Assembly (NCBI GenBank): GCA_009773355.1
Contig: WRPG01000004.1
Coordinates: forward strand, 1 to 64,000
Direction of reading: 5' to 3'
Source: Limisphaerales bacterium
GTDB lineage: Bacteria; Verrucomicrobiota; Verrucomicrobiia; Limisphaerales; SXTU01
Length of the DNA: 64,000 bases
In this document: one piece after another, positions 19,720 to 58,703 of the stretch
How the letters are laid out: every line of letters starts with the position of its first letter
How positions within the stretch are numbered: the stretch's first letter is position 1
Program-made: the position numbers and the translations under genes
The notes under the pieces: generated by a model
Database searches by the model: none
Seen by the model: only the letters and a program-made list of their open reading frames with translations
What the model was told of the DNA's origin: nothing

Positions 19720-23037
<3,318 letters not shown>

Positions 23038-28762: not shown

Positions 28763-28902
28763 AAGCTCCAAATCCCAAGTTCCAAGCTCCAAAGAAGCTC
28801 CAAACACCAAGCTCCAAACGCCAAAGACCGCCGTTCGACTCCACGGCTCATCGGAGCTTGGAGCTTGGGGTTTCTTTGGAGCTTGGAACTTGGAGCTTGG
28901 GA
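28763..28902. repeat. AGCTCCA/GGAGCTT 7-mer inverted element with one 11-nt unit, copy 1
   Basis: Left arm from 28764: AGCTCCA, AATCCCA, AGTTCCA, AGCTCCA, AAGAAGCTCCA (11 nt), AACACCA, AGCTCCA, AACGCCA. Right arm from about 28852 is the inverted counterpart with TCTTTGGAGCT as the 11-nt unit. It fills the gap between ABC ATPase stop and permease start, both minus strand. Confidence 0.93.
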
Positions 28903-28905
28903 TTT

Positions 28906-29594: not shown

Positions 29595-30731
29595 TTACTT
29601 CATCTCGACGCGGATCTGCCGGGCGTCGTTCAGGCCAAGTTCGAGCAGGGCGGCGTTCTTGTAGAGTTCGGCGGCGAATTTCGCGGAGGGAATCCCCGCC
29701 TTCTGCCGCTGCGCCTCCAGTTCCGCCAGCGAGAGGGTATCGAGCGCGACGGGGTCCTTCGAGAAACGGAGCTGGCTCAACGGCGCGGCGTAGTGCAGCC
29801 GCGTGAGCTGCTCACCCTGATACTGGCAGATCAGCGCGTCGGTGATGCAGAGCGCGAGCCGGTCGTAGAGTGCGGGCAGCGCGAAAATCTCCGGCACCGC
29901 CTCGGCGAGCGCGCGGGCGGTGGACTCGAAGCGCAGGGTGTTGTCCACGCTGCCCAGCGCGAGGCTGTAGAAGTGCCCGCCCACGCCGGCGAGGTTGTGG
30001 TTCATCAGCGGCGCGATGCTGATGTGCCGCGTGATGTCCCGCGCGACCAGCTTCGAGAAGTGGGACTTGCGCCCGATGCCGTCGCCCTTCCTGCCGAACT
30101 CGGCGTCGCCCCAGATCAAGTTCCCGAGCAGCGAGTTTTCGTAATAGGTCTTGTCGTCCCAGCCCGCGCTGGCGGCGGAGGAGATGCGCACGCCGTAGCG
30201 GGCCGCCAGCTCGAAGTAGCCGGCGATGCGCAAGTCCACGAGCTGCTTGTCCCAGATGACGATGTGCTTGGGCGGCAGCCCGGCGGCGAGCAGGCCCTCC
30301 ACCACCGCCGCGACCACCGACGGTCTGGTCCCGCTCGTGTGGCCGGCCCCGGAGAAAACTTTTAGCCCGACCACATCGTTGGTCTTCACCACGCTGCGCC
30401 AGGCCTCCGCAACGGTCGGCTTGCCCGTGTGCGCAAGGATGCCGCGCTCCATCATCGCGCGAACCACGTCCGGTCGCGGCGTGAAGGCTTCCATCGCCTG
30501 CGCATCCTGCACGACGACGACGCGGGCCTGCGGGAGCTGCGGCGGAGCGGTGAGCGGCGGGGCGGCGGCGAAGCTCCAAATCCCAAGCTCCAAGCTCCAG
30601 AGAATCACCAAGCTCCAAATCCCAAGAGCACGCGGGCCCAATCCGACGCTCGCCTCTCTTGGAGCTTGGTGTTTGGGGCTTCTTTGGAGCTTGGAGCTTG
30701 GAGCTTGGGCTTTATCCCCACGCGCATCCAT
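29595..30731 (-). CDS. DUF362-like protein with repeat-derived N-terminus
   Basis: 378 residues from ATG 30731 (MDARGDKAQ); GTG 30791 would add 20 residues. From about residue 65 on it matches DUF362: RVVVVQDAQAMEAF, VGLKVFSGAGHTSGTRPSVV, HIVIWDKQLVDLRIAGYFEL, HISIAPLMNHNLAGVGGHFY. The family is a predicted iron-sulfur or metal-dependent protein of unknown reaction. The first 60 residues are translated from the palindromic short-period element at 30572-30709: SSKLQRSPKHQAP, then LGIWSLVILWSLELGIWSFA, which is hydrophobic enough to be a signal peptide core ending SFAAAPP. No other export signal is present. Confidence 0.78.
   Translation of the reverse strand: MDARGDKAQAPSSKLQRSPKHQAPREASVGLGPRALGIWSLVILWSLELGIWSFAAAPPLTAPPQLPQARVVVVQDAQAMEAFTPRPDVVRAMMERGILAHTGKPTVAEAWRSVVKTNDVVGLKVFSGAGHTSGTRPSVVAAVVEGLLAAGLPPKHIVIWDKQLVDLRIAGYFELAARYGVRISSAASAGWDDKTYYENSLLGNLIWGDAEFGRKGDGIGRKSHFSKLVARDITRHISIAPLMNHNLAGVGGHFYSLALGSVDNTLRFESTARALAEAVPEIFALPALYDRLALCITDALICQYQGEQLTRLHYAAPLSQLRFSKDPVALDTLSLAELEAQRQKAGIPSAKFAAELYKNAALLELGLNDARQIRVEMK
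30572..30709. repeat. AGCTCCA/GGAGCTT 7-mer inverted element with one 11-nt unit, copy 2
   Basis: Left arm: AGCTCCA, AATCCCA, AGCTCCA, AGCTCCA, GAGAATCACCA (11 nt), AGCTCCA, AATCCCA. Right arm: TGGAGCT, TGGTGTT, TGGGGCT, TCTTTGGAGCT (11 nt), TGGAGCT, TGGAGCT. The 11-nt unit stands in the same place as in copies 1 and 3. Translated on the minus strand as the N-terminal hydrophobic region of the DUF362 protein. Confidence 0.93.
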
Positions 30732-30821
30732 CGCCGCGCTTGCTTCCGCAAACCAGCCTTTCCCGGCGCTTTCCTGTGCGTTTCTTGACACTGCGAGCGG
30801 CGGATGTTACCGACGGTCACG

Positions 30822-33371: not shown

Positions 33372-34145
33372 ATGCAAGTTGAAGTTGCGAGCTGGCTCAA
33401 CGGACTGACCCCGATGTTCGCCGCCGCCGCCGAGACGGCGACCAAGGCCGCCGCGAAGGCTGGCGAAACCACCGCCGCCGGGCCGTCCGCCGGCCTCTTC
33501 GATGTCCTGCTCATCATCGCCATCGGCCTGGGCTGCTGGCGCGGCAAGAAGCGCGGCATCTCGGAGGAGTTGCTCGATTTCCTGCAATGGCTCGTCATCA
33601 TCGTGGCGGCGGGCTTCCTCTACGCGATGGTGGGCGACCTGCTGGTCCAAGCGAAGCTCCCGCGCCTGTGGGCGAACATCGGCGGCTACATCGCGGTGAT
33701 GATCGTGGTCTCCATCATCTTCGGCCTCATCAAGAAGAGCGTCGGCAACAAGATGGTGGAGAGCGACTTCTTCGGCGGCTGGGAATACCGCCTGGGCATG
33801 GTGGCCGGCGCGATCCGCTACCTGTGCATCTGGATCGTGGTCCTCGCGATGCTGTCCGCGCGCTACTTTGATGCCGCCACCGTCGAGGCGCAGCGCAAGC
33901 TTCAGGAAAAGGAGGTCGGCATCGTCCTCATTCCGTCCTGGGGGATGCTCAATCGCATGGCGTTCTACGACAGCTTCACCGGCCCCTACATCCGCCAGTA
34001 TCTCGCGCACCAGTTGATGCAGCCCGTCGGGCTGGTGAAGCCGCCGCCCAGCGAAAACACCATCGGCAAGCAGCAGCAGCGCGTGCTCGACGACGTGACC
34101 TCCACGCCCAAGCCGACGCCCGCCCCGCCGCCGGAGAAGAAGTAA
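33372..34145 (+). CDS. CvpA family membrane protein
   Basis: 257 residues from ATG 33372 (MQVEVASWLNGL). After an Ala/Thr-rich N-terminus come four hydrophobic helices with the CvpA pattern LFDVLLIIAIGLGCWRGKKR, GISEELLDFLQWLVIIVAAG and FFGGWEYRLGMVAGAIRYLC. E. coli CvpA is linked to colicin V production and envelope stress; the function here is unknown. Pro-rich C-terminal tail. dnaG follows after a short-period repeat element, possibly in the same transcript. Confidence 0.82.
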   Translation: MQVEVASWLNGLTPMFAAAAETATKAAAKAGETTAAGPSAGLFDVLLIIAIGLGCWRGKKRGISEELLDFLQWLVIIVAAGFLYAMVGDLLVQAKLPRLWANIGGYIAVMIVVSIIFGLIKKSVGNKMVESDFFGGWEYRLGMVAGAIRYLCIWIVVLAMLSARYFDAATVEAQRKLQEKEVGIVLIPSWGMLNRMAFYDSFTGPYIRQYLAHQLMQPVGLVKPPPSENTIGKQQQRVLDDVTSTPKPTPAPPPEKK

Positions 34146-34149
34146 TGGA

Positions 34150-34283
34150 AGCCCCAAGCTCCAAGCTCCAAGCTCCAAAGAAACTCCAAGCACCAAGTTC
34201 CAAGGTCAACCGTCGGGAGCTTCGGTTTGGGGATTTGAAATTTGGGATTCCTCTGGAGCTTGGAGCTTGGGATTTGGAGCTTT
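34150..34283. repeat. AGCTCCA/GGAGCTT 7-mer inverted element with one 11-nt unit, copy 3
   Basis: Left arm: three AGCTCCA units, AAGAAACTCCA (11 nt), AGCACCA, AGTTCCA. Right arm: GGAGCTT, CGGTTTG, GGGATTT, GAAATTT, GGGATTCCTCT (11 nt), GGAGCTT, GGAGCTT, GGGATTT, GGAGCTT. It ends one base before the dnaG ATG, so the dnaG leader is the repeat itself. Confidence 0.92.
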
Positions 34284-34284
34284 C

Positions 34285-36318
34285 ATGGCCGGCCTGATTC
34301 CACCGCAGAAGCTCGAGGAAATCCGCGCGGCCAGCGACATCGTGGATGTCATCGGTGGCTACCTCGGTCCGCTCAAGCGCGCGGGCGCAAACTTCGTCAC
34401 GCTCTGCCCGTTCCACCGCGAGAAGTCGCCGAGCTTCAACGTCAATCCGGGCCGCCAGATCTTCCATTGCTTCGGCTGCCACAAGGGCGGCGACGTGTTC
34501 ACCTTCGTCAAGGAATACGAGAACCTCTCCTTCATTGAGGCCGTCCGCCGCCTCGCCGAGCGCGCGCGCATCGTGCTGGAGTTCGAGGACAACCCCCACG
34601 CGAAGCAGGCGCGCGGCGAGAAGGAGTCGCTCCTCCACCTCCACGAGGAAATCTGCAAGCGCTGGCAGACCGCGCTGGCCAACGATGCCGCCGGCCAGAT
34701 CGCCCGCGATTACCTCGCCAAGCGCGGCGTCTCCGCCGAGGCCGTGAAACTCTTCCGCCTCGGCTACGCGCCGGATCTGTGGGACGACACGGTGAACTGG
34801 GCGAAGTCCAAAAACTTCGACCTCAAGCTCGTGGAGCGCGGCGGCCTCGTCATCCGCAAGGAAGGGGCCGACCATTTCTACGACCGCTTCCGGGGCCGGC
34901 TCATGTTCCCGATCTGCGACGAGCAGGGCCGCGTCATCGGCTTCAGCGGGCGCGTGCTCGCGGGCGACGAGAAGACCGCGAAGTATGTCAACTCGCCGGA
35001 GACGCCCATCTTCACCAAGGGCCGCGTCATCTTCGGCCTCGACAAGTCCAAGCGCGCCGTCGCCGACAAGGACTGCGCCATCATCTGCGAGGGCCAACTC
35101 GATCTCATCGCCTGCTTCATGGCCGACGTGAAGAACGTCGTCGCGCCGCAGGGCACCGCGCTCACCGCCGACCACTGCCGCATTCTCAAGCGCTACGCGG
35201 ACGAGGTCGTCCTCTGCTTCGACTCCGACAACGCCGGGCAAAACGCCGCCGTCCGCTCGCTGGACATTTTGCTCGCGAGCGGCCTCGCCATCCGCGTTGC
35301 CACCGTGCCCGCGCCGCACGACCCGGACAGCTACATCAAGGCGAACGGCGGCCCGGCCTTCGAGCAGCTCATCGAGCGCGCGGAAAACTTCTTCGACTAC
35401 TACCTCAACCGGCTGTGTGTGCAGAACGACCTCGGCGCGGACAAGGGGCGTCTCGCCGTCCTGCACGCGATGGGCGAGGCCACGCAGAAGACCGGCAACG
35501 CGGTGCTGATTGACACCTACGCGCAGAAGACCGCCGCGCGGCTCGGCGTGGCGCCGGAGGCCGCACGCGCGGAGTTCAAGAAGATCGCCGCCGCCAAGCC
35601 CAAGTTCGTCCTGCGCACCGACGCGCAGCCCGCAGCCCGTGCCGGTGGTTTGCAACCGCCGTCCACCGCTCCCGGCACGCCCAAGCGCGGCGATTCCAAA
35701 TCGCCGGCACCGGACCCCGACAGTCCGCCCGACGATTACTACGACTCCCAGCCCGCCGCACCCAGCGAAGGCCATTCCGGCGACGTGCTGCCCGGCACCG
35801 ACCCGGCACCGGAGCCGGAAGCCCCGCCGTCGAAGCAGGAGTTCTGGCTGCTACAGGCGCTCTTCCACAGCGACGATCAGATGGAGTGGCTGGCGAACAC
35901 GCTGCGGCTCGAATGGCTCACCCACTTGGGCGTGCGGCAGATCGTCGCCCATCGGCTCGCGGGTTACGCGAACCAGTCGTGGCACGGCCCCGCGCAGTTG
36001 CTCGGTGAGTTGCCCGACGACGCTGCCCGCTCGCTCTGCACGCAGGCGATGGCCGAGAGTGACCGGATGCTGGCGACCCCGCAGCCCCGCGAAGGTGAAG
36101 ATGCCGCGCGCGCGACGCGCATCCAGGCCGAGCGCGAGAAGGCCCGTCTCGCCATGCTCCGCGACGTGCTCACGCGGCTGCGCAACGACTTCATTGACCG
36201 CCGCATGTCGGAGCTGAACCGCGAGCTGAACGCGCCGCAGCTCGAAGACTCCGAGCAAAACTCCCTGCTCCGCGAGCGCGAGCAGTTGCGCCAGCAGAAG
36301 AAGCAGCCGCTGGCGTGA
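34285..36318 (+). CDS. dnaG: DNA primase
   Basis: 677 residues from ATG 34285 (MAGLIPPQKLEEIRAASDIV). Zinc-binding CHC2 domain (CPFHREKSPSF ... HCFGCHKGGDVF), catalytic N-terminal fold, TOPRIM with EGQLDLIACF and LCFDSDNAGQNAA, then a C-terminal helicase-binding region. Synthesises RNA primers at the replication fork. Residues about 452-476, between TOPRIM core and C-terminal domain, are translated from a palindromic element (35639-35710); the flanking stretch is disordered-looking (PDSPPDDYYDSQPA). The start is chosen from the family; the repeat element just upstream replaces a normal leader. Confidence 0.96.
   Translation: MAGLIPPQKLEEIRAASDIVDVIGGYLGPLKRAGANFVTLCPFHREKSPSFNVNPGRQIFHCFGCHKGGDVFTFVKEYENLSFIEAVRRLAERARIVLEFEDNPHAKQARGEKESLLHLHEEICKRWQTALANDAAGQIARDYLAKRGVSAEAVKLFRLGYAPDLWDDTVNWAKSKNFDLKLVERGGLVIRKEGADHFYDRFRGRLMFPICDEQGRVIGFSGRVLAGDEKTAKYVNSPETPIFTKGRVIFGLDKSKRAVADKDCAIICEGQLDLIACFMADVKNVVAPQGTALTADHCRILKRYADEVVLCFDSDNAGQNAAVRSLDILLASGLAIRVATVPAPHDPDSYIKANGGPAFEQLIERAENFFDYYLNRLCVQNDLGADKGRLAVLHAMGEATQKTGNAVLIDTYAQKTAARLGVAPEAARAEFKKIAAAKPKFVLRTDAQPAARAGGLQPPSTAPGTPKRGDSKSPAPDPDSPPDDYYDSQPAAPSEGHSGDVLPGTDPAPEPEAPPSKQEFWLLQALFHSDDQMEWLANTLRLEWLTHLGVRQIVAHRLAGYANQSWHGPAQLLGELPDDAARSLCTQAMAESDRMLATPQPREGEDAARATRIQAEREKARLAMLRDVLTRLRNDFIDRRMSELNRELNAPQLEDSEQNSLLREREQLRQQKKQPLA
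35639..35710. repeat. GTGCCGG-edged palindromic element inside dnaG, arms covarying
   Basis: Left arm 35639-35661 and right arm 35688-35710. Outer edges GTGCCGG and CCGGCAC as in the intergenic copy at 27300. Inner hairpins differ: GGTGGTTTGCAACCGCC (one G-T pair) on the left, GGCGATTCCAAATCGCC on the right. Read in frame as AGGLQPPSTAPGTPKRGDSK. Confidence 0.85.
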
Positions 36319-48013: not shown

Positions 48014-49747
48014 ATGCCCGTCACCGACCACATCCGCAGCAAGCTCTCGCAGGTGCCGCACCGGCCGGGCGTGTATCTGCACAAGGACCGCTTCGGCACG
48101 GTGATTTACGTCGGCAAGGCGCGCGACCTCCGCAAGCGCGTCGCCCAGTATTTCCAATCATCTCGCCGCCTCGGCTGGGACTTGAAGTTCAACGCCCTCG
48201 TCGAAGCCATCCACGACTTCGACTGCCACGTCGTGAAGTCCGACGCCGAGGCCGTGCTGCTCGAGGGCAAGCTCATCAAGGAGTTTCACCCGCGCTACAA
48301 CGTCTCCTTCCGCGACGACAAGCGCTTCCTGATGCTCAAGGTCAACCTCAACGACCCCATCCCGCGCTTCACCCTCACTCGCCTCAAGCTCGACGACGGC
48401 GCGCGTTACTTCGGGCCGTTCGCCAGCGGCGGCGCGCTGCGGCGCACGCTGAATCTGGTCCGCCACAAGTTCAACCTGCGCGGCTGCCGCCCGCTCACGC
48501 CCGATGCCAGCGATTACAAGCACTGCCTCTACGCGCACATGAAGGTCTGCACCGCGCCGTGCATCGGCAACGTGACGCGCGAGCAGTATCTCATGCAGGT
48601 CACCGCCGGCTGCGACTTCCTCGACGGCCAGTGCGACGAGATGGCGACCGAACTGGAGGCGCAGATGAAGAAGGCCGCCGCCGCGCAGGACTTCGAGCAG
48701 GCCGCGCAGCTCCGCGACCTGCTGGCGGACATCAAGCGCTCGACGAAGAAGACCAAGTCCTTCGAGCGCGTGCCTTACTCCCTGCCCGTGTCCGTCCACC
48801 CGGAGCGCGACTTGGAGGAACTGGCGAAGGTGCTCGGCCTGGCCGCGCCGCCGCAGCGCATCGAGGGCTTCGACATCTCGAACATCAGCGGGACGTTCGC
48901 CGTGGCGTCGCTCGTGAGCTTCTGGCACGGCCGCCCCGACCGGACGAACTACCGGCGCTTCAAGATCAAGACCGTGACGGGCCAAGACGACTTCGCCTGC
49001 ATGGCGGAGACGATTCGCCGACGCTACTCGCGGCTGAAGAAGGAAGTGGGACAGGAAATGTCGAACGGCGAATTGCGAGTGTCGAATGCTCCGACCGATG
49101 CCGCCGCCGATTCGTCATTCGTCATTCGACATTCGTCATTGCCCGACGAGGGCGAGGAAGCCCCCGAGACCCGCCCCACCTCCGCCTTCGATGCCATCGT
49201 CCACGATGCTGCCAGCCGCGACGAGATGACCGCGCCGTGGGTGCCCAAGACGCCTTCCGCAGTGCGCCTGCCGGACCTCATCCTGATTGACGGCGGCCGG
49301 GGCCAGCTCAACGCCGCGTGCGCCGAGCTGGCGAAGCTTGGCCTTGGCCACATCGCCATCATCGGCCTCGCGAAGGAGTTCGAGGAAATCTACCAGCCCG
49401 GCGAGAGCGCCCCGCTGCGCCTCGGCCTCGACCATCCGGCGGTGAAACTCCTCCAGCGCGTGCGCGACGAGTCCCACCGCGTCGCCAACAGCTACAACGC
49501 CCAGCTCCGGCTGCGGAAGATTTCAGAGAGCATCCTCGATGAGTTCCCCGGCGTGGGTGATGCGAGGAAGCAGGTGCTCCTGAAAAAGTTTGGCTCCATC
49601 CACCGCCTGCGCCTCGCGACCGTCGAGCAGATCGCCGAAGTCCCCGGCTTCGGCGGCAGGACCGCGCAGGAGTTGAAAGCCTTCCTCGAAACGCGCACAG
49701 AGCGGCCGGCTGCAAAGCAGCTTCCAGAAGAATCAGGAAGCCCCTGA
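48014..49747 (+). CDS. uvrC: Excinuclease ABC subunit C
   Basis: 577 residues from ATG 48014 (MPVTDHIRSKLSQVPHRPGV). GIY-YIG nuclease (GVYLHKDRFGTVIYVGKARD), a Cys-containing region (CLYAHMKVCTAPCIGNV), UVR helix (AAAQDFEQAAQLRDLLADIK), RNase H-like second nuclease (IEGFDISNISGTFAVASLVS, DLILIDGGRGQLNAA) and C-terminal helix-hairpin-helix motifs (FPGVGDARKQVLLKKFGSIH). Makes both incisions in nucleotide excision repair. About 60 residues between RRRYSRLKKE and LPDLILIDGG are extra; roughly half of them are translated from a short-period inverted element (49058-49140). Confidence 0.95.
   Translation: MPVTDHIRSKLSQVPHRPGVYLHKDRFGTVIYVGKARDLRKRVAQYFQSSRRLGWDLKFNALVEAIHDFDCHVVKSDAEAVLLEGKLIKEFHPRYNVSFRDDKRFLMLKVNLNDPIPRFTLTRLKLDDGARYFGPFASGGALRRTLNLVRHKFNLRGCRPLTPDASDYKHCLYAHMKVCTAPCIGNVTREQYLMQVTAGCDFLDGQCDEMATELEAQMKKAAAAQDFEQAAQLRDLLADIKRSTKKTKSFERVPYSLPVSVHPERDLEELAKVLGLAAPPQRIEGFDISNISGTFAVASLVSFWHGRPDRTNYRRFKIKTVTGQDDFACMAETIRRRYSRLKKEVGQEMSNGELRVSNAPTDAAADSSFVIRHSSLPDEGEEAPETRPTSAFDAIVHDAASRDEMTAPWVPKTPSAVRLPDLILIDGGRGQLNAACAELAKLGLGHIAIIGLAKEFEEIYQPGESAPLRLGLDHPAVKLLQRVRDESHRVANSYNAQLRLRKISESILDEFPGVGDARKQVLLKKFGSIHRLRLATVEQIAEVPGFGGRTAQELKAFLETRTERPAAKQLPEESGSP
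49058..49140. repeat. Inverted 7-mer element inside uvrC
   Basis: Left: ATGTCGA, ACGGCGA, ATTGCGA, GTGTCGA from 49058. Right, from 49110: ATTCG, TCATTCG, TCATTCG, ACATTCG, TCATT. Exact 7-nt phase in both arms. Read in frame as MSNGELRVSNAPTDAAADSS then FVIRHSSL. Confidence 0.92.
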
Positions 49748-52142: not shown

Positions 52143-55100
52143 ATGTCGAAGCCGTCGCCCGCCAACTTCATCCGCCTCCGCGGCGTGCGGCACAACAACC
52201 TCAAGGGCTTCGACCTGGACCTGCCGCTGGGGAAGCTCATCGTCATCACGGGCTTGAGCGGCTCGGGGAAGTCCTCGCTGGCGTTCGACACGCTTTTCGC
52301 CGAGGGCCAGCGGCGCTACATCGAGACCTTCTCGCCGTATGCGCGGCAGTTCTTCGACCGCATGGACAAGCCGGCGGTGGACAGCATCGAAGGCATCCCG
52401 CCGGCCATCGCCATCGAGCAGCGCAACGCCGTGCGCACCACGCGCAGCACCGTCGGCACGATGACGGAAATCTGCGACCACCTGAAGGTGCTCTGGCCGC
52501 ACCTCGCCACGCTGCATTGCCGCAAGTGCGGGAAGCCCGTGGAGAAGGAGCCGCCGCAGAAGGTGTGGGAAGTGGTAGCAGCCGACGTGAGGAGGCTCCA
52601 TTCAAATGCGGAGCGCGGAACGCAGAATGCGGAATGTCTGGTGACGTTCGACCTCGCGTTGTCGGAGAAGCTCTCGCTGAAGGAATCGCTCTCCCTCCTC
52701 GCCAAGCAAGGCTACCAGCGCCTCCTCGTCAGCGGCGAAGTCGTCCGCCTCGAAGACGCAGCCCCCAAACTACGGAGCGCCGAGCATTGCTCGGCCGATG
52801 CAAGCGAACCCGCCCAAGCCGAGCAATGCTCGGCGCTCCGCCAAGTCCCAGCCGCCCTTACTGTCCTCCAAGACCGCCTCCGCCTCACCCCCGCCATCCG
52901 CTCCCGTTTCATCGAAGCCTGCGAACAAGCCTACCACTTCGGCAAAGGCCGCCTCGCCGTTCACCTACTTCCCAGCGCCTCCCCCCCAGACCCCAGACCC
53001 CAGACGCTAGACCCAATTCCCCATTCCCCATCCCCCATTCCCTTTTCAAATCGCTTCCACTGCGCCCCCTGCGATCTCGACTACCGCGAGCCGTCCCCCG
53101 CGCTCTTCAGCTTCAACCACCCCGTCGGCGCGTGCCCCGCGTGCAAGGGCTTCGGACGCGTCATCGGCATTGACTACGAGTTGGCGATTCCCGACCGCTC
53201 GCTCTCGCTGGCTGCCGGCGCGGTGAAGCCTTGGCGCACCGGCACCGGCGCGGAGTCGTTGGCCGACTTGGCGAAGTTCTGCAAGAAGCTCGGCGTGCCG
53301 ATGGACGTGCCCTTCCGCGACTTGAGCGAGGCGCACCAACGCTGGGTCATCGAAGGCGACCCCGGCTACGACAGCAACGACCCCGCGAACGCCTGGCCGA
53401 AGAAGTGGTATGGCGTGAAGGGCTACTTCCGCTGGCTGGAGAGCAAGAGCTACAAGATGCACGTCCGCGTGCTGCTCTCGCGCTACCGCAGCTACACGCG
53501 TTGCCCGAGCTGCGAGGGGCGGCGGTTTCAGCCGGAAGCGTTGCTCTACCAAGTCCCCGTAGGTGACGACGTAAGGAGTCTCCATTCAAACGCGGAACGC
53601 GGAACGCAGAGCGCGGAACAGAAGTCAGAGACTCCTCACGTCGTCTCCTACCCGCGACTCACCCTCGCCGACTTCTACGCCCTCCCTGTCACCCGCGCCC
53701 TCGAAGTCATCGAATCGCTCGCCGCGCGTTTCCCCCAATCGGCAATCGGCAATCGGCAATCGCCCATTCATCACGCCTTGGAGGAGGTTTCCTCCCGCCT
53801 CCGCTACCTCGCCGAAGTTGGCCTCGGCTACCTCACGCTGGACCGTGCCACGCGCACGCTCTCCGGCGGCGAGACCGAGCGCGTGAACCTCACCACCTGT
53901 CTCGGCACGCGCCTCGTCAACACGCTCTACGTCCTCGACGAGCCGAGCGTCGGCCTGCACCCGCGCGACACCGCGCGCCTCGTCGTCATCCTTCAACGCC
54001 TCCGCGACCTCGGTAACACCGTCATCGTCGTCGAGCACGAAGCCGCCGTCATGCGCGCCGCCGACCAGATTGTGGACCTCGGCCCCGGCCACGGGGAGAC
54101 GGGCGGCGAACTGGTCTTTCAAGGCACGCTGACCGAATTGCTGAAGCACCCCCTCTCGCTCACGGGGCAATACTTGAGCGGGCGGATGCAGGTGGAGACG
54201 CGAGCGCGACGGCCCATTCATGGCGAAGCAGGTGAGAAAGTGGGAAAGCGAGAAAGTGAGAGGGGCTCCACCGCTCACTCTCCCACTTTCTCACCTGCTC
54301 ACTTTCTCACGCTGACCGGCGCTTCCGCTCACAACCTCAAAAACCTAACCATCTCCATCCCGCTGGGCCGTTTCGTCTGCCTCACGGGCGTGAGCGGCTC
54401 CGGCAAGTCCACCCTCGTCCGCGACTGCCTCCTGCCCGCGATCCAAGCCAAACTTCAAGCCGCCGCCAAAGCCACCGACCACCCAGAAGCCACCGGCGAA
54501 GCCGACGACTCCCCCACCGAAGCCCCATCTCCTATCACCCATTCCCCATCCCCTCTTTCCCTCACCGGAGCGGAGCGACTGTCCCGCGCCATCCTCGTTG
54601 ACCAAACCTCCCTCGGCAAAACTCCGCGCTCCAACCCCGCCGTCTACATCGGCGCCTTTGACCATCTCCGCGACCTCTTCGCCGCCACGGAACTCGCCAA
54701 GCAGCGCGGCCTGAACAGCAGCGCCTTCAGCTTCAACTCCGCTGTCGGCCAGTGCGACCGCTGCCGGGGCGCGGGCTTCGAGAAAATTGAAATGCAGTTC
54801 CTCAGCGATGTGTTCATCAAGTGCCCGGCGTGCGAGGGAAGGCGGTATCGTGAGCACGTTTTGGAAGTGAAGATCGAGGCGGTGGGGAAAGTAATTAGTG
54901 AGGAAGTGATTAGTAAGAAGTCCCCGAGCCGCGCCCGCTCCAAGTCCCCACTAAGCACTCAATCACTAATCACTAATTACTCTTGGTCCATCGCCGACCT
55001 CCTCGCCGCCAGCGTGGACGAATCCCTCGCCTTCCTCGCCGCCCTGCCCGACTCGAAGCCCGCCGCCCGCGCCGCCGCTGCGCTGCGTGTCTTGCAGGAA

Positions 55101-55791: not shown

Positions 55792-58703
55792 CAAACGAGA
55801 TTTCCATCCACGGCGCGCGGCATCACAACCTGAAGAACCTCTCGCTCGCCATCCCGCGCGGGAAGTTCGTGGTCGTCACGGGCGTCAGCGGCAGCGGCAA
55901 GAGCACGCTCGCCTTCGACCTCATCTTCGCCGAGGGCCAGCGGCGCTTCCTCGATGCGATGAACGCCTACGCGCGGCAGTTCGTGGAGCAGATGGCGCGA
56001 CCCGACGTGGACCTCATCACCGGCATCCCGCCCACCGTCAGCATCGAGCAGCGGAACTCGCGCGGCGGCGGCAAGTCCACCGTCGCCACGGTCACGGAGA
56101 TTCACCACTTCCTGCGCCTGCTCTTCGCCAAGCTCGGCACGCAGTTCTGCCCGCAGTGCAACGTCCCCGTCACCGGCCAGACGCGTGACGCGCTGGCGGC
56201 GAACTTGCAGAACGAACTCAAACAGCGCGGCGACCTGTTGCTGCTCGCGCCCGTGGTGAAGAATCGCAAAGGCTTCCACAGCGAAGTCGCCACCTGGGCC
56301 GCGAAGAACGGCTACGCCGAAATCCGCGCGGACGGGAGGATGTTCCGCACGGACGAACACTTCCGCCTCGACCGCTTCAAGGAGCACGATGTGGAAATCG
56401 TCGTGGGCGTGCTGGAGAAGCGGCGGAGCGCGGGCGTCCCCGCCCGCAGCGCGTCCGAACGCAAGCAGGGCTTACGCATCTCCGAAGTGTCCCCTGCGAG
56501 CGAAGCCGCTGCGGGCGGGGACGCCCGCGCTCCACAGCAGCTCGTGGACATCGCCCTCAAACTCGGCCACGGCACACTCTACGCGCTGGACAATCACCGC
56601 CAGCTCACCGTCCACAGCACCGAGCGCGCGTGCCCGACGTGCCACGCCAGCTTCGCCGCGCTCGACCCGAAGAACTTCAGCTACAACTCCGCGCAGGGCT
56701 GGTGCCCCCAATGCCGCGGCTTCGGCGAACTCTTTTACATCCCCGACGTGGAGCGCGGCGCGAACGCGGACTCGGTCGAGGAGAGCTGGTGGAGCTGGGC
56801 GCAGGAGCGGGAGGTGTGCCCGGAGTGCCACGGTGCGCGGTTGAACCCCGTGGCGCGTGCGGTGCGTCTCGTGGTAGCAGCCGACGTGAGGAGGCTCACT
56901 TCGACTTCCGCCCTCGCTGGCCGAAAGAAAAAGTCAGAGCCTCCTCACGTCGGCTGCTACGCGGACGGGGTGACGATTGACTTCTTCTCCACCGCGAACG
57001 TGGACGCCGCGCTCGCTTACTTCTCCGCGCTGAAGCTCGCCGGGCGCGATGCCGACATCGCGCGCGACATCCTGCCGGAGATTCGCGAGCGGCTGAAGTT
57101 CCTGAGCGAAGTGGGCCTCGGCTACCTCCAGCTTGGCCGTGCTGCGCCGACGCTGTCCGGCGGCGAGGCGCAGCGGATGCGCCTGGCCGCCCAACTCGGC
57201 TCGAACCTCAGCGGCGTCCTCTATGTCCTCGACGAGCCGACCATCGGCCTGCACGCGCGCGACAACGCCCTGCTGCTTGGCGCGCTCAAGCAGCTCCAGT
57301 CGCGCGGCAACTCGCTGCTCGTGGTCGAGCACGACGAGGACACGATGCGCCATGCCGACTGGGTGATTGACCTGGGCCCCGGCGCGGGCGTGAAGGGCGG
57401 CGAAGTCATTGCCAGCGGGACGTTGAAGGAGTTGCTGCGGCACAAGGAGAGCATCACCGGCCAGCAACTCCGCGCGCAGGAGGGGAAAAAGTATCCGAGC
57501 CGGGGCGAACGGCGAGCAGTGGCAGGCCGAAACGGAGCAGGTGAGAAAGTGGGAAGGCGGGAAAGTGAGAAGCAGGCCGGGCGCGGGCGAGCCACAGGCT
57601 CACTTTCTCACTCTCACACTTTCCCACCCGCTCACTGTCTCACTCTCGCCAACGCTTCCACCCACAACCTCAAAGACCTCACCGTCCGCTTCCCGCTGAA
57701 CCGGTTCGTGGTCATCACCGGCGTGAGCGGCAGCGGCAAGAGCACGTTGATTCGCGAGTGCTTGTTGCCTGCCGTGCAAACCGCGCTCGCCAAGCCGAGC
57801 AATGCTCGGCGCTCCGCCCCAGACGCCAGACGCCAGACCTCATCCGCTCCCCGTCTCGCCGGCCACGAGTCCCTCTCCGCTGTTTACGAGGTTGACCAGT
57901 CGCCCATCGGCCGCACGCCGCGCAGCACGCCCGCGACTTACGTGGGCTTTTTCGATGACATCCGCGCGCTGTTCGCGCAGGTGCCGGAGGCGCGGATGCG
58001 CGGCTACGGGCCGGGGCGCTTCAGCTTCAACAGCCCGGCGGGCCGCTGTCCCGGCTGCGACGGCGCAGGCGAGGTGAAATTAGAAATGAACTTTCTCCCG
58101 CCCGCCTACGTGCGCTGTGAGGTCTGCAACGGCCTGCGCTTCAATCCCGAGACGCTTGATGTGCTCTTCAACGGCAAGAACATCGCGCAGGTGCTCGACC
58201 TCAGCGTGGCCGAGGCGCTGGAGTTCTTCGCCGCGCAGAAGCGCATCCGCCGTCCGCTGGAGGCTCTCCGCGACACCGGCCTCGACTACCTCAAGCTCGG
58301 CCAGACCAGCCCGACATTGAGCGGCGGCGAGGCGCAGCGCGTGAAGCTCGTGACGCACTTGCTCGGCGGGTTGAAGGATGCGTCCGCTGACAAGCTGCCT
58401 GACCCGCGATTTCAAACCCGAAACGCCAAGCTCTTCATCCTCGAAGAACCAACCATCGGCCTGCACATGAGTGACGTGCAGCGGCTGGTGGCTGTGCTGC
58501 AGCGCCTCGTGGACGCCGGCCACAGCGTCATCGTCATCGAGCACAACCTTGACCTCATCGCCGAGGCGGACTGGGTGATTGACCTCGGCCCGGAGGCGGG
58601 CGACGCGGGCGGAGGGCTGGTGGCCGAGGGGACTCCGGAGGAAGTGGCGCGTTGCGAGCGGTCGCACACGGGCCGGTTTCTCAGCGGGCTGGTCGGACGC
58701 TGA
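55761..58703 (+). CDS. UvrA paralogue 2
   Basis: 980 residues from TTG 55761 (or TTG 55782); no ATG precedes the conserved [19 protein letters not shown]1: [30 protein letters not shown], zinc motifs [28 protein letters not shown] and [37 protein letters not shown]2: [53 protein letters not shown] and [11 protein letters not shown], where the Walker B Asp is Glu. Diverged from UvrA1 and probably a UvrA2-like protein used in damage tolerance or drug resistance. It contains repeat insertions at 56425, 56874, 57537 and 57794. uvrA1 lies 141 bases upstream on the same strand. Confidence 0.9.
56425..56533. repeat. GGAGCGC-edged perfect palindrome in uvrA2
   Basis: Arms 56425-56451 and 56507-56533, perfect 27-base reverse complements containing GCGGGCGTCCCCGCCCGC; core 55 bases. 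Read in frame as [20 protein letters not shown] ... [12 protein letters not shown]. Confidence 0.95.
56874..56960. repeat. GACGTGAGGAG-type perfect palindrome in uvrA2
   Basis: Arms 56874-56897 and 56937-56960, perfect 24-base reverse complements (GTAGCAGCCGACGTGAGGAG plus GCTC). Core 39 bases. Read [20 protein letters not shown] ... [10 protein letters not shown] after the zinc motif. Confidence 0.95.
57537..57648. repeat. Inverted 8-mer element in uvrA2
   Basis: Left TGAGAAAG, TGGGAAGG, CGGGAAAG, TGAGAAGC; right CTCACTTT, CTCACTCT, CACACTTT, CCCACCCG, CTCACTGT, CTCACTCT. Placed directly before the NBD2 start, as in uvrA1. Confidence 0.9.
57794..57842. repeat. Single arm plus 7-mers in uvrA2
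   Basis: 57794-57815 equals the right arm of the uvrA1 palindrome at 52818 (GCCGAGCAATGCTCGGCGCT plus CC). It is followed by CAGACGC, CAGACGC, CAGACC. Read [20 protein letters not shown] after NBD2 Walker A. Confidence 0.9.

Follow-up and report, generated by a model that had tools for sequence, protein, structure and literature searches.

Part of a bacterial signal peptide made from a mobile repeat has been described before: in Yersinia, the RU-2/YPAL MITE is fused to YPO1552, where it forms amino acids 1–30 of a signal peptide predicted by SignalP in a putative exported protein (Delihas 2007, PMC2759123; reviewed in PMC2229807). Rickettsia palindromic elements (RPEs) are palindromes of ~100–150 bp that lie in frame inside conserved genes; they are said to occupy assorted positions in non-structured segments and have not been reported to act as signal peptides. 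The origin of targeting sequences is usually argued from random-sequence experiments. In 1983 Ohno and Epplen reportedly noted, as part of a theory of the first proteins, that when the length of a repeated oligomer is not divisible by three, every reading frame gives the same repeating peptide; in the present case, this would account for the conversion of a mobile repeat into a targeting sequence in living genomes.

The locus described here lies in a window of 64,000 nucleotides (the whole stretch of DNA that was analysed) from a Limisphaerales bacterium. A palindrome of 7-nt units lies in frame near the start of a gene for a DUF362 protein, and comparisons with relatives make it probable that the 3′ arm of this repeat element has been reused as the core of the protein's signal peptide. 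As in YPO1552, a small palindromic mobile sequence makes the N-terminal part of a putative signal peptide. Unlike the single locus and putative protein of YPO1552, many known exported families are involved here, with congeners that have the element and others that lack it, together with several unrelated repeat families and a frame-invariant 7-nt build. As with RPEs, to judge by their published description, the palindrome is in frame inside a conserved open reading frame. The features that seem to be new are that the phenomenon recurs in several exported families, that repeat families are exchanged for one another among orthologues and that the build is frame-invariant; open-licence PMC papers yielded none on signal peptides repeatedly made from repeats, which is weak evidence of absence.

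The element in the leader of the DUF362 gene

The coordinates of the gene, its leader and the neighbouring copies of the element are collected in Table 1. The reading frame encodes 378 amino acids, and its product matches the Pfam DUF362 profile (PF04015) above the curated cut-off (27.4 versus 24 bits, E 4.2e-6). Read from the ATG, the protein consists of MDARGD, the first arm KAQAPSSKLQRSPKHQAPRE, the loop, the second arm LGIWSLVILWSLELGIWSF (residues 36–54), AAAPPLTA and the conserved domain. An earlier note on this DNA had the front of the protein translated wholly from the GGAGCTT element; this stands for approximately residues 7–53, the 27-nt loop included, and fails for residues 1–6, which are not element sequence. 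The inverted repeat arms (30576–30628 and 30656–30708) are 79% complementary, with AAGCTCC as the unit of the first arm in the gene direction and GGAGCTT as that of the second. They are predicted to form a hairpin of -94.4 kcal/mol (z = -5.8), which none of 200 shuffles equalled.

Table 1. Positions of the element, the DUF362 gene and associated features in the window.
Feature	Position	Strand	Remarks
Palindromic element, 7-nt units (AAGCTCC / GGAGCTT)	30571..30713		~143 bp, in frame in the DUF362 gene
Second element copy	28763..28905		Between ABC ATPase and permease genes
Third element copy	34145..34286		Directly upstream of a primase-like ORF; ATG adjoins the last GGAGCTT
DUF362 gene	29595..30731	-	ATG 30731 to stop 29595; element inside, near the 5′ end
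5′ arm in gene direction	30656..30713	-	Codes the KAQAPSSKLQRSPKHQAPRE stretch; basic, hydrophilic n-region
Loop between arms	30629..30655	-	Alternative TTG start within (MGPRALGIWS...)
3′ arm in gene direction	30570..30628	-	Codes LGIWSLVILWSLELGIWSF, putative h-region; best 12-aa Kyte-Doolittle mean 2.05
AAAPPLTA, non-element	30546..30569	-	c-region and likely cleavage zone (e.g. SFA/AAPP); conserved in congeners
Likely sigma-70-type promoter, divergent TPR gene	30785..30813	+	TTGACA, 17 nt, TACCGA, upstream TG

By composition only, the leader resembles a signal peptide of Sec type: K/R are present in the n-region, the best 12-residue hydropathy is 2.05, and both S-F-A before A and A-A-A are available at its end, where cleavage may fall, for example, between SFA and AAPP. 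The likeness to a signal peptide core and cleavage site that had been remarked on in the element stretch plus AAPP is borne out by the basic arm, the hydropathy and the small residues after the core. The earlier remark that the gene has no other export signal agrees with the hydrophobic segment in the window being supplied by the element only. The putative h-region contains a glutamate (E48) and several tryptophans. An AlphaFold model of the protein built with 13 homologues (mean pLDDT 53.5, residues 1–67 below 50) was too weak for a fold search, and no sequence relative of the protein was found in the PDB.

The start codon in use is probably, not certainly, the ATG at 30731. It is kept at the aligned place in one congener, G010 (L013), and not in G008 or G009, which would need GTG as a start. 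Upstream of the gene, the reading HPPLA-V-SRNAQ was considered as a conserved N-terminus and rejected, because TGTCAAGAAAC is invariant in the genus at the DNA level (identical in 10/10 aligned members), because the start codon is not kept everywhere (E replaces V in L021, L037 and L050) and because the segment fits the promoter of the divergent gene, which it likely is.

Orthologues and competing readings

The mature part of the DUF362 protein was found in 38 of 40 relatives. Named records yielded 15 of the orthologue loci, several being from identical contigs, and 37 loci were kept for the hydropathy comparison after eight duplicate or truncated ones had been dropped. On in-frame upstream reading, every orthologue locus with a 5′ end has a hydrophobic, signal-peptide-like run directly before the conserved ARVVVVQD strand; orthologues without the repeat, to which the earlier note had pointed for comparison, thus have such a segment of their own. 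The best 12-residue Kyte-Doolittle mean is 2.05 in the window, 2.09 in G008 and 1.94 in G009, against 2.27 +/- 0.36 (minimum 1.57) at the 34 other loci, among which those of G005, G007 and G010 are possibly element-derived themselves. The element run lies within the orthologue range and would therefore take the place of the ordinary signal.

Ten members of the genus with the DUF362 gene were aligned. The element is present, in frame and with an identical 3′ junction, in the window's own genome (G000) and in G008 and G009. Over 48 nt anchored at the junction, identity to the window is 40 in both G008 and G009, 34 in G005, 24 in G010 and 23 in G007 (shuffle p <=0.0008 in each), and 20 in G001, 16 in G002, 15 in G006 and 12 in G004 (p 0.02 to 0.8; raw values from 27 tests). 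On this alignment the copy in G005 is a diverged one, the leaders of G007 and G010 may be remnants of the element, and those of G001, G002, G004 and G006 are to all appearances unrelated to it. The core glutamate of the window is replaced by alanine in G008 and glycine in G005. A tree of three genes groups G000, G002, G007, G010, G008 and G009 (support 0.86) with G005 outside. The simplest reading would be a single early insertion that later decayed or was replaced; the same spot may instead have been hit more than once, or sequence may have passed between species. The corresponding segment at the same place in orthologues, together with the in-frame element in two congeners, supports the suggestion that a targeting sequence was here born from a repeat.

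Two further observations concern these loci. In G005 (L017), an extra insertion of ~300 nt with other palindrome-like sequence stands before the diverged element upstream of the DUF362 gene. Five records (L039, L040, L041, L044 and L051) are labelled Akkermansia muciniphila or Proteobacteria; their gene fits Limisphaerales/Pedosphaera, and the labels look unreliable.

Different starts or fates of the leader would lead to other readings. If translation began downstream, where the first GTG in frame stands 19 codons past the element, the element would be an untranslated leader and the protein cytosolic. A strong hairpin does precede the domain, and many other copies stand upstream of a start; however, this GTG lies inside the conserved ARVVVVQD strand, the element is open and in frame in two congeners, and such a start is disfavoured because it would remove the hydrophobic segment present in all orthologues with a 5′ end, making this reading very improbable. 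A start inside the element (the TTG of the loop, or a GTG or TTG of the 3′ arm) would leave the 3′ arm alone as the signal peptide, with the n-region MGPRA- in the window or MQSRRA- in G008 and G009. We think this unlikely without being far-fetched: the resulting signal peptide has a compact shape, a GTG occurs at that place in G008 and G009, where no upstream ATG is left, and R-A-L is common to five genus members, but the start would fall near the apex of a long hairpin, and the DctP and TPR genes, which belong to the same class, keep the ATG that precedes the 5′ arm.

An uncleaved membrane anchor in place of a cleaved signal peptide would suit the Trp-rich core with its Glu and the long n-region, but small AAA residues follow directly on the core, as they do in orthologues with ordinary leaders, and we rate this reading as distinctly unlikely. 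It is scarcely credible that the element is a meaningless neutral hitchhiker in a gene, or an export function, in decay: elements do occur at many gene starts, yet the mature part is intact and 79–89% identical in congeners, the frame is maintained in G008 and G009, and the 3′ arms of fused genes are acid-poor. The reading that we prefer, reuse of the 3′ arm as the signal peptide core, draws on the in-frame position, the orthologue segment, the recurrence in other genes and the frame invariance, all of which can be read from the DNA itself. Against it stand the glutamate and tryptophans of the h-region, the start codon that G008 and G009 lack, and the hairpin of -94 kcal/mol, which, if ATG 30731 is the start, lies just behind it and should hinder initiation or elongation.

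Copies of the element and fusions to other exported-type genes

The pattern GGAGCTTGGAGCTTGG matches exactly at 46 places in the genome, and at none when read backwards; with up to two mismatches there are 244 matches, compared with 24 for the reversed control. Of 288 genomes across the phylum, only 9 contain the exact pattern, among them that of the window; the others have 1 to 11 matches each, so the repeat family is rare outside the genus. In 57 clusters in G000, drawn from part of the 244 sites and with at least two elements split into halves, the AAGCTCC arm precedes the GGAGCTT arm in 47, the reverse order occurs in none, and ten have one arm.

At the place of the copy between the transporter genes, the four congeners with both flanking genes in range (G007, G008, G009 and G010) all have an empty site, in which the ATG of the permease lies within a few bases of the ATPase gene. 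Dispersed copies of a short inverted repeat, and relatives in which a site is empty, are characteristic of MITEs. The element resembles MITEs and REP sequences moved by a transposase in trans, which are likewise dispersed short palindromes mostly between genes. By comparison with these, no target-site duplication is evident by eye at this single empty site; neither a transposase linked to the element nor an autonomous partner element was found, and the Y1 transposase profile (PF01797) has three matches in G000.

Many copies are followed immediately by a start codon, including both other copies in the window (the one at 34145–34286 stands before an ORF whose protein reads as primase-like) and those at L061, L068, L074, L080, L090 and others. 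GGAG lies within 26 nt of the ATG in 27 of 38 genes preceded by such a copy, and at 4–12 nt in 16 of those. The last GGAG would then be at Shine-Dalgarno distance, and the palindrome could hide it, a possible translation switch.

In 11 of the 57 clusters, chosen by eye with their signal-like look in view, reading runs straight from the second arm into a protein of exported type, and the next ATG lies 18 codons or more beyond the element; a GTG or TTG follows within 13 codons in 4 of the 11. Besides DUF362, Pfam assigns the ten fused genes to two sulfatases, DctP, PSCyt1/PSCyt2, DUF3999, an MGH1-like glycoside hydrolase, a phosphodiesterase and two TPR proteins, with one gene having no match. 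Nine of the 11 have an ATG no more than ~25 nt ahead of the 5′ arm, and in the DctP and L063 TPR genes its position is common to several element-less congeners. The last 22 residues of the 3′ arm hold on average 0.64 acidic residues in the 11 fused genes and 2.14 in 43 other open readings, some of which are not real genes (p = 5e-4; the test is not blind, because the 11 were picked with sequences in view), and the best 12-residue hydropathy of the arm is 1.67 versus 1.07 (p = 0.002). Such acid-poor second arms are as selection for an h-region would give.

Orthologues were compared for 8 of the 11 fused genes, DUF362 included, and where species have the element in common it joins the mature part at an identical point. 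In DctP, the element is also in G003; a WTLDLGLW repeat takes the place in G004, G005 and G010 and VIGHWSL in G002, and the leaders of G007, G008 and G009 look ordinary (G006 is ambiguous). The L063 TPR gene has the element also in G004, FTFAFCL repeats in G001, G003 and G005, an AETQRTQR-type leader in G002 and ordinary leaders in G007 and G010. The L099 TPR gene shares the element with G006, has another repeat in G002 and is ordinary in G004, G005 and G010; the DUF3999 gene shares it with G005, and G001, G002 and G004 are without it. The L057 gene has the element also in G004, HPSSFILHP-type repeats in G002, G007, G008 and G009, two further kinds of repeat in G010 and G005, and ordinary leaders in G001, G003 and G006. 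For the sulfatase L093 and the MGH1-like gene there are few other copies, all without the element. Across the eight genes, 18 of 47 orthologue copies outside G000 show a strong 7-nt period (19 of 28) within the 150 nt that precede the mature part; this is not a genome-wide rate because the genes were chosen for the element in G000. The same 47 copies gave 0/47 in 150 nt of the mature part and none at periods of 5, 8, 10, 11 or 13.

Within the element loop of L063 (G000 C26) is a further repeat-like stretch (AKAQRTQRSAEE...LCAFAF), which may be an insertion nested in the leader. At 150.6–153.2 kb of G000 C59 (L076, L191), a PSCyt-type ORF of 1242 amino acids contains four distinct clusters of 7-nt repeats, of which one is a putative signal peptide.

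Frame geometry and 7-nt repeats at gene starts

Because 7 and 3 are coprime, the GGAGCTT repeat reads as the same heptapeptide, GAWSLEL, in all three frames (in three phases), and its complement reads as KLQAPSS. The basic arm always comes first because the palindrome looks alike from both strands. In 282 readings of 47 palindromic copies, 96% of the second arms lack a stop codon, compared with 43% when shuffled, and their best 12-residue hydropathy is 0.96 (0.49 shuffled); the first arms have a mean net charge of +2.6 and are positive in 95%, and 74% of whole copies are open. An element inserted shortly after a start codon, whatever its frame or orientation, would therefore offer a basic n-region and, behind it, a hydrophobic h-region.

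On this model, a mobile-looking palindrome of 7-nt units would have landed in the leader of the putatively exported DUF362 protein, and its 3′ arm would now serve as the hydrophobic core of a signal peptide, assumed to be of Sec type. Exported proteins may tolerate or recruit n- and h-regions inserted in this way; acidic residues would later be lost, and the repeat would decay to an ordinary signal peptide or be overwritten by another repeat family. That export depends on the element segment, and the order of these events, are what we infer from the comparisons. A broader proposal, which we hold tentatively and at somewhat less than even chances, is that signal peptides in this genus turn over via mobile repeats. 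Several palindromic 7-nt families would act as portable signals independent of frame and orientation, some with first arms (GATGAAG, TGACCAA, AATGGCG) that bring an ATG. The element would provide GGAG at Shine-Dalgarno distance when placed before a start and a signal peptide when placed behind it, and new signals would lose acidic residues and mature into ordinary ones. A succession of stages can be read in living relatives: a fresh repeat, one with acid lost, a diverged copy, a remnant and replacement by another repeat. A unit length coprime with three would be a simple reason for such insertions being tolerated or useful. Gene-callers and signal-peptide studies should take into account that leaders in such genomes may be repeat-made.

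The distribution of 7-nt repeats was also assessed in 1.30 Mb of sequence taken regardless of the element. Clusters with a period of 7 (at 24 of 35) number 87, in excess of the 2–17 found at other periods that are not multiples of three. Repeats (19 of 28) occur in 5/169 signal-like regions, 44/621 other gene starts and 6/790 mid-gene stretches; they are commoner in signal-like regions than mid-gene (p = 0.03) and not commoner there than at other gene starts, where p = 0.05 in the opposite direction. The repeats therefore gather at gene starts and not at signal peptides in particular, and the idea that they are aimed at signal peptides is not supported. Sulfatases taken alone are too small a sample, with eight genes in the 1.30 Mb, one of which has a 7-nt repeat.

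Thirty of 82 7-nt repeat clusters lie inside genes without an evident link to export, with a hydrophilic bias that is suggestive only (p = 0.06, n = 30). In the window, in-frame repeats of this kind occur inside long genes at 20195–20259, 49099–49153, 52964–53057, 53587–53781 and 57797–57846. They read as peptides such as IGNRQSAIGN, two of them in one ORF of 1162 amino acids, and belong to several families; these internal inserts are RPE-like.
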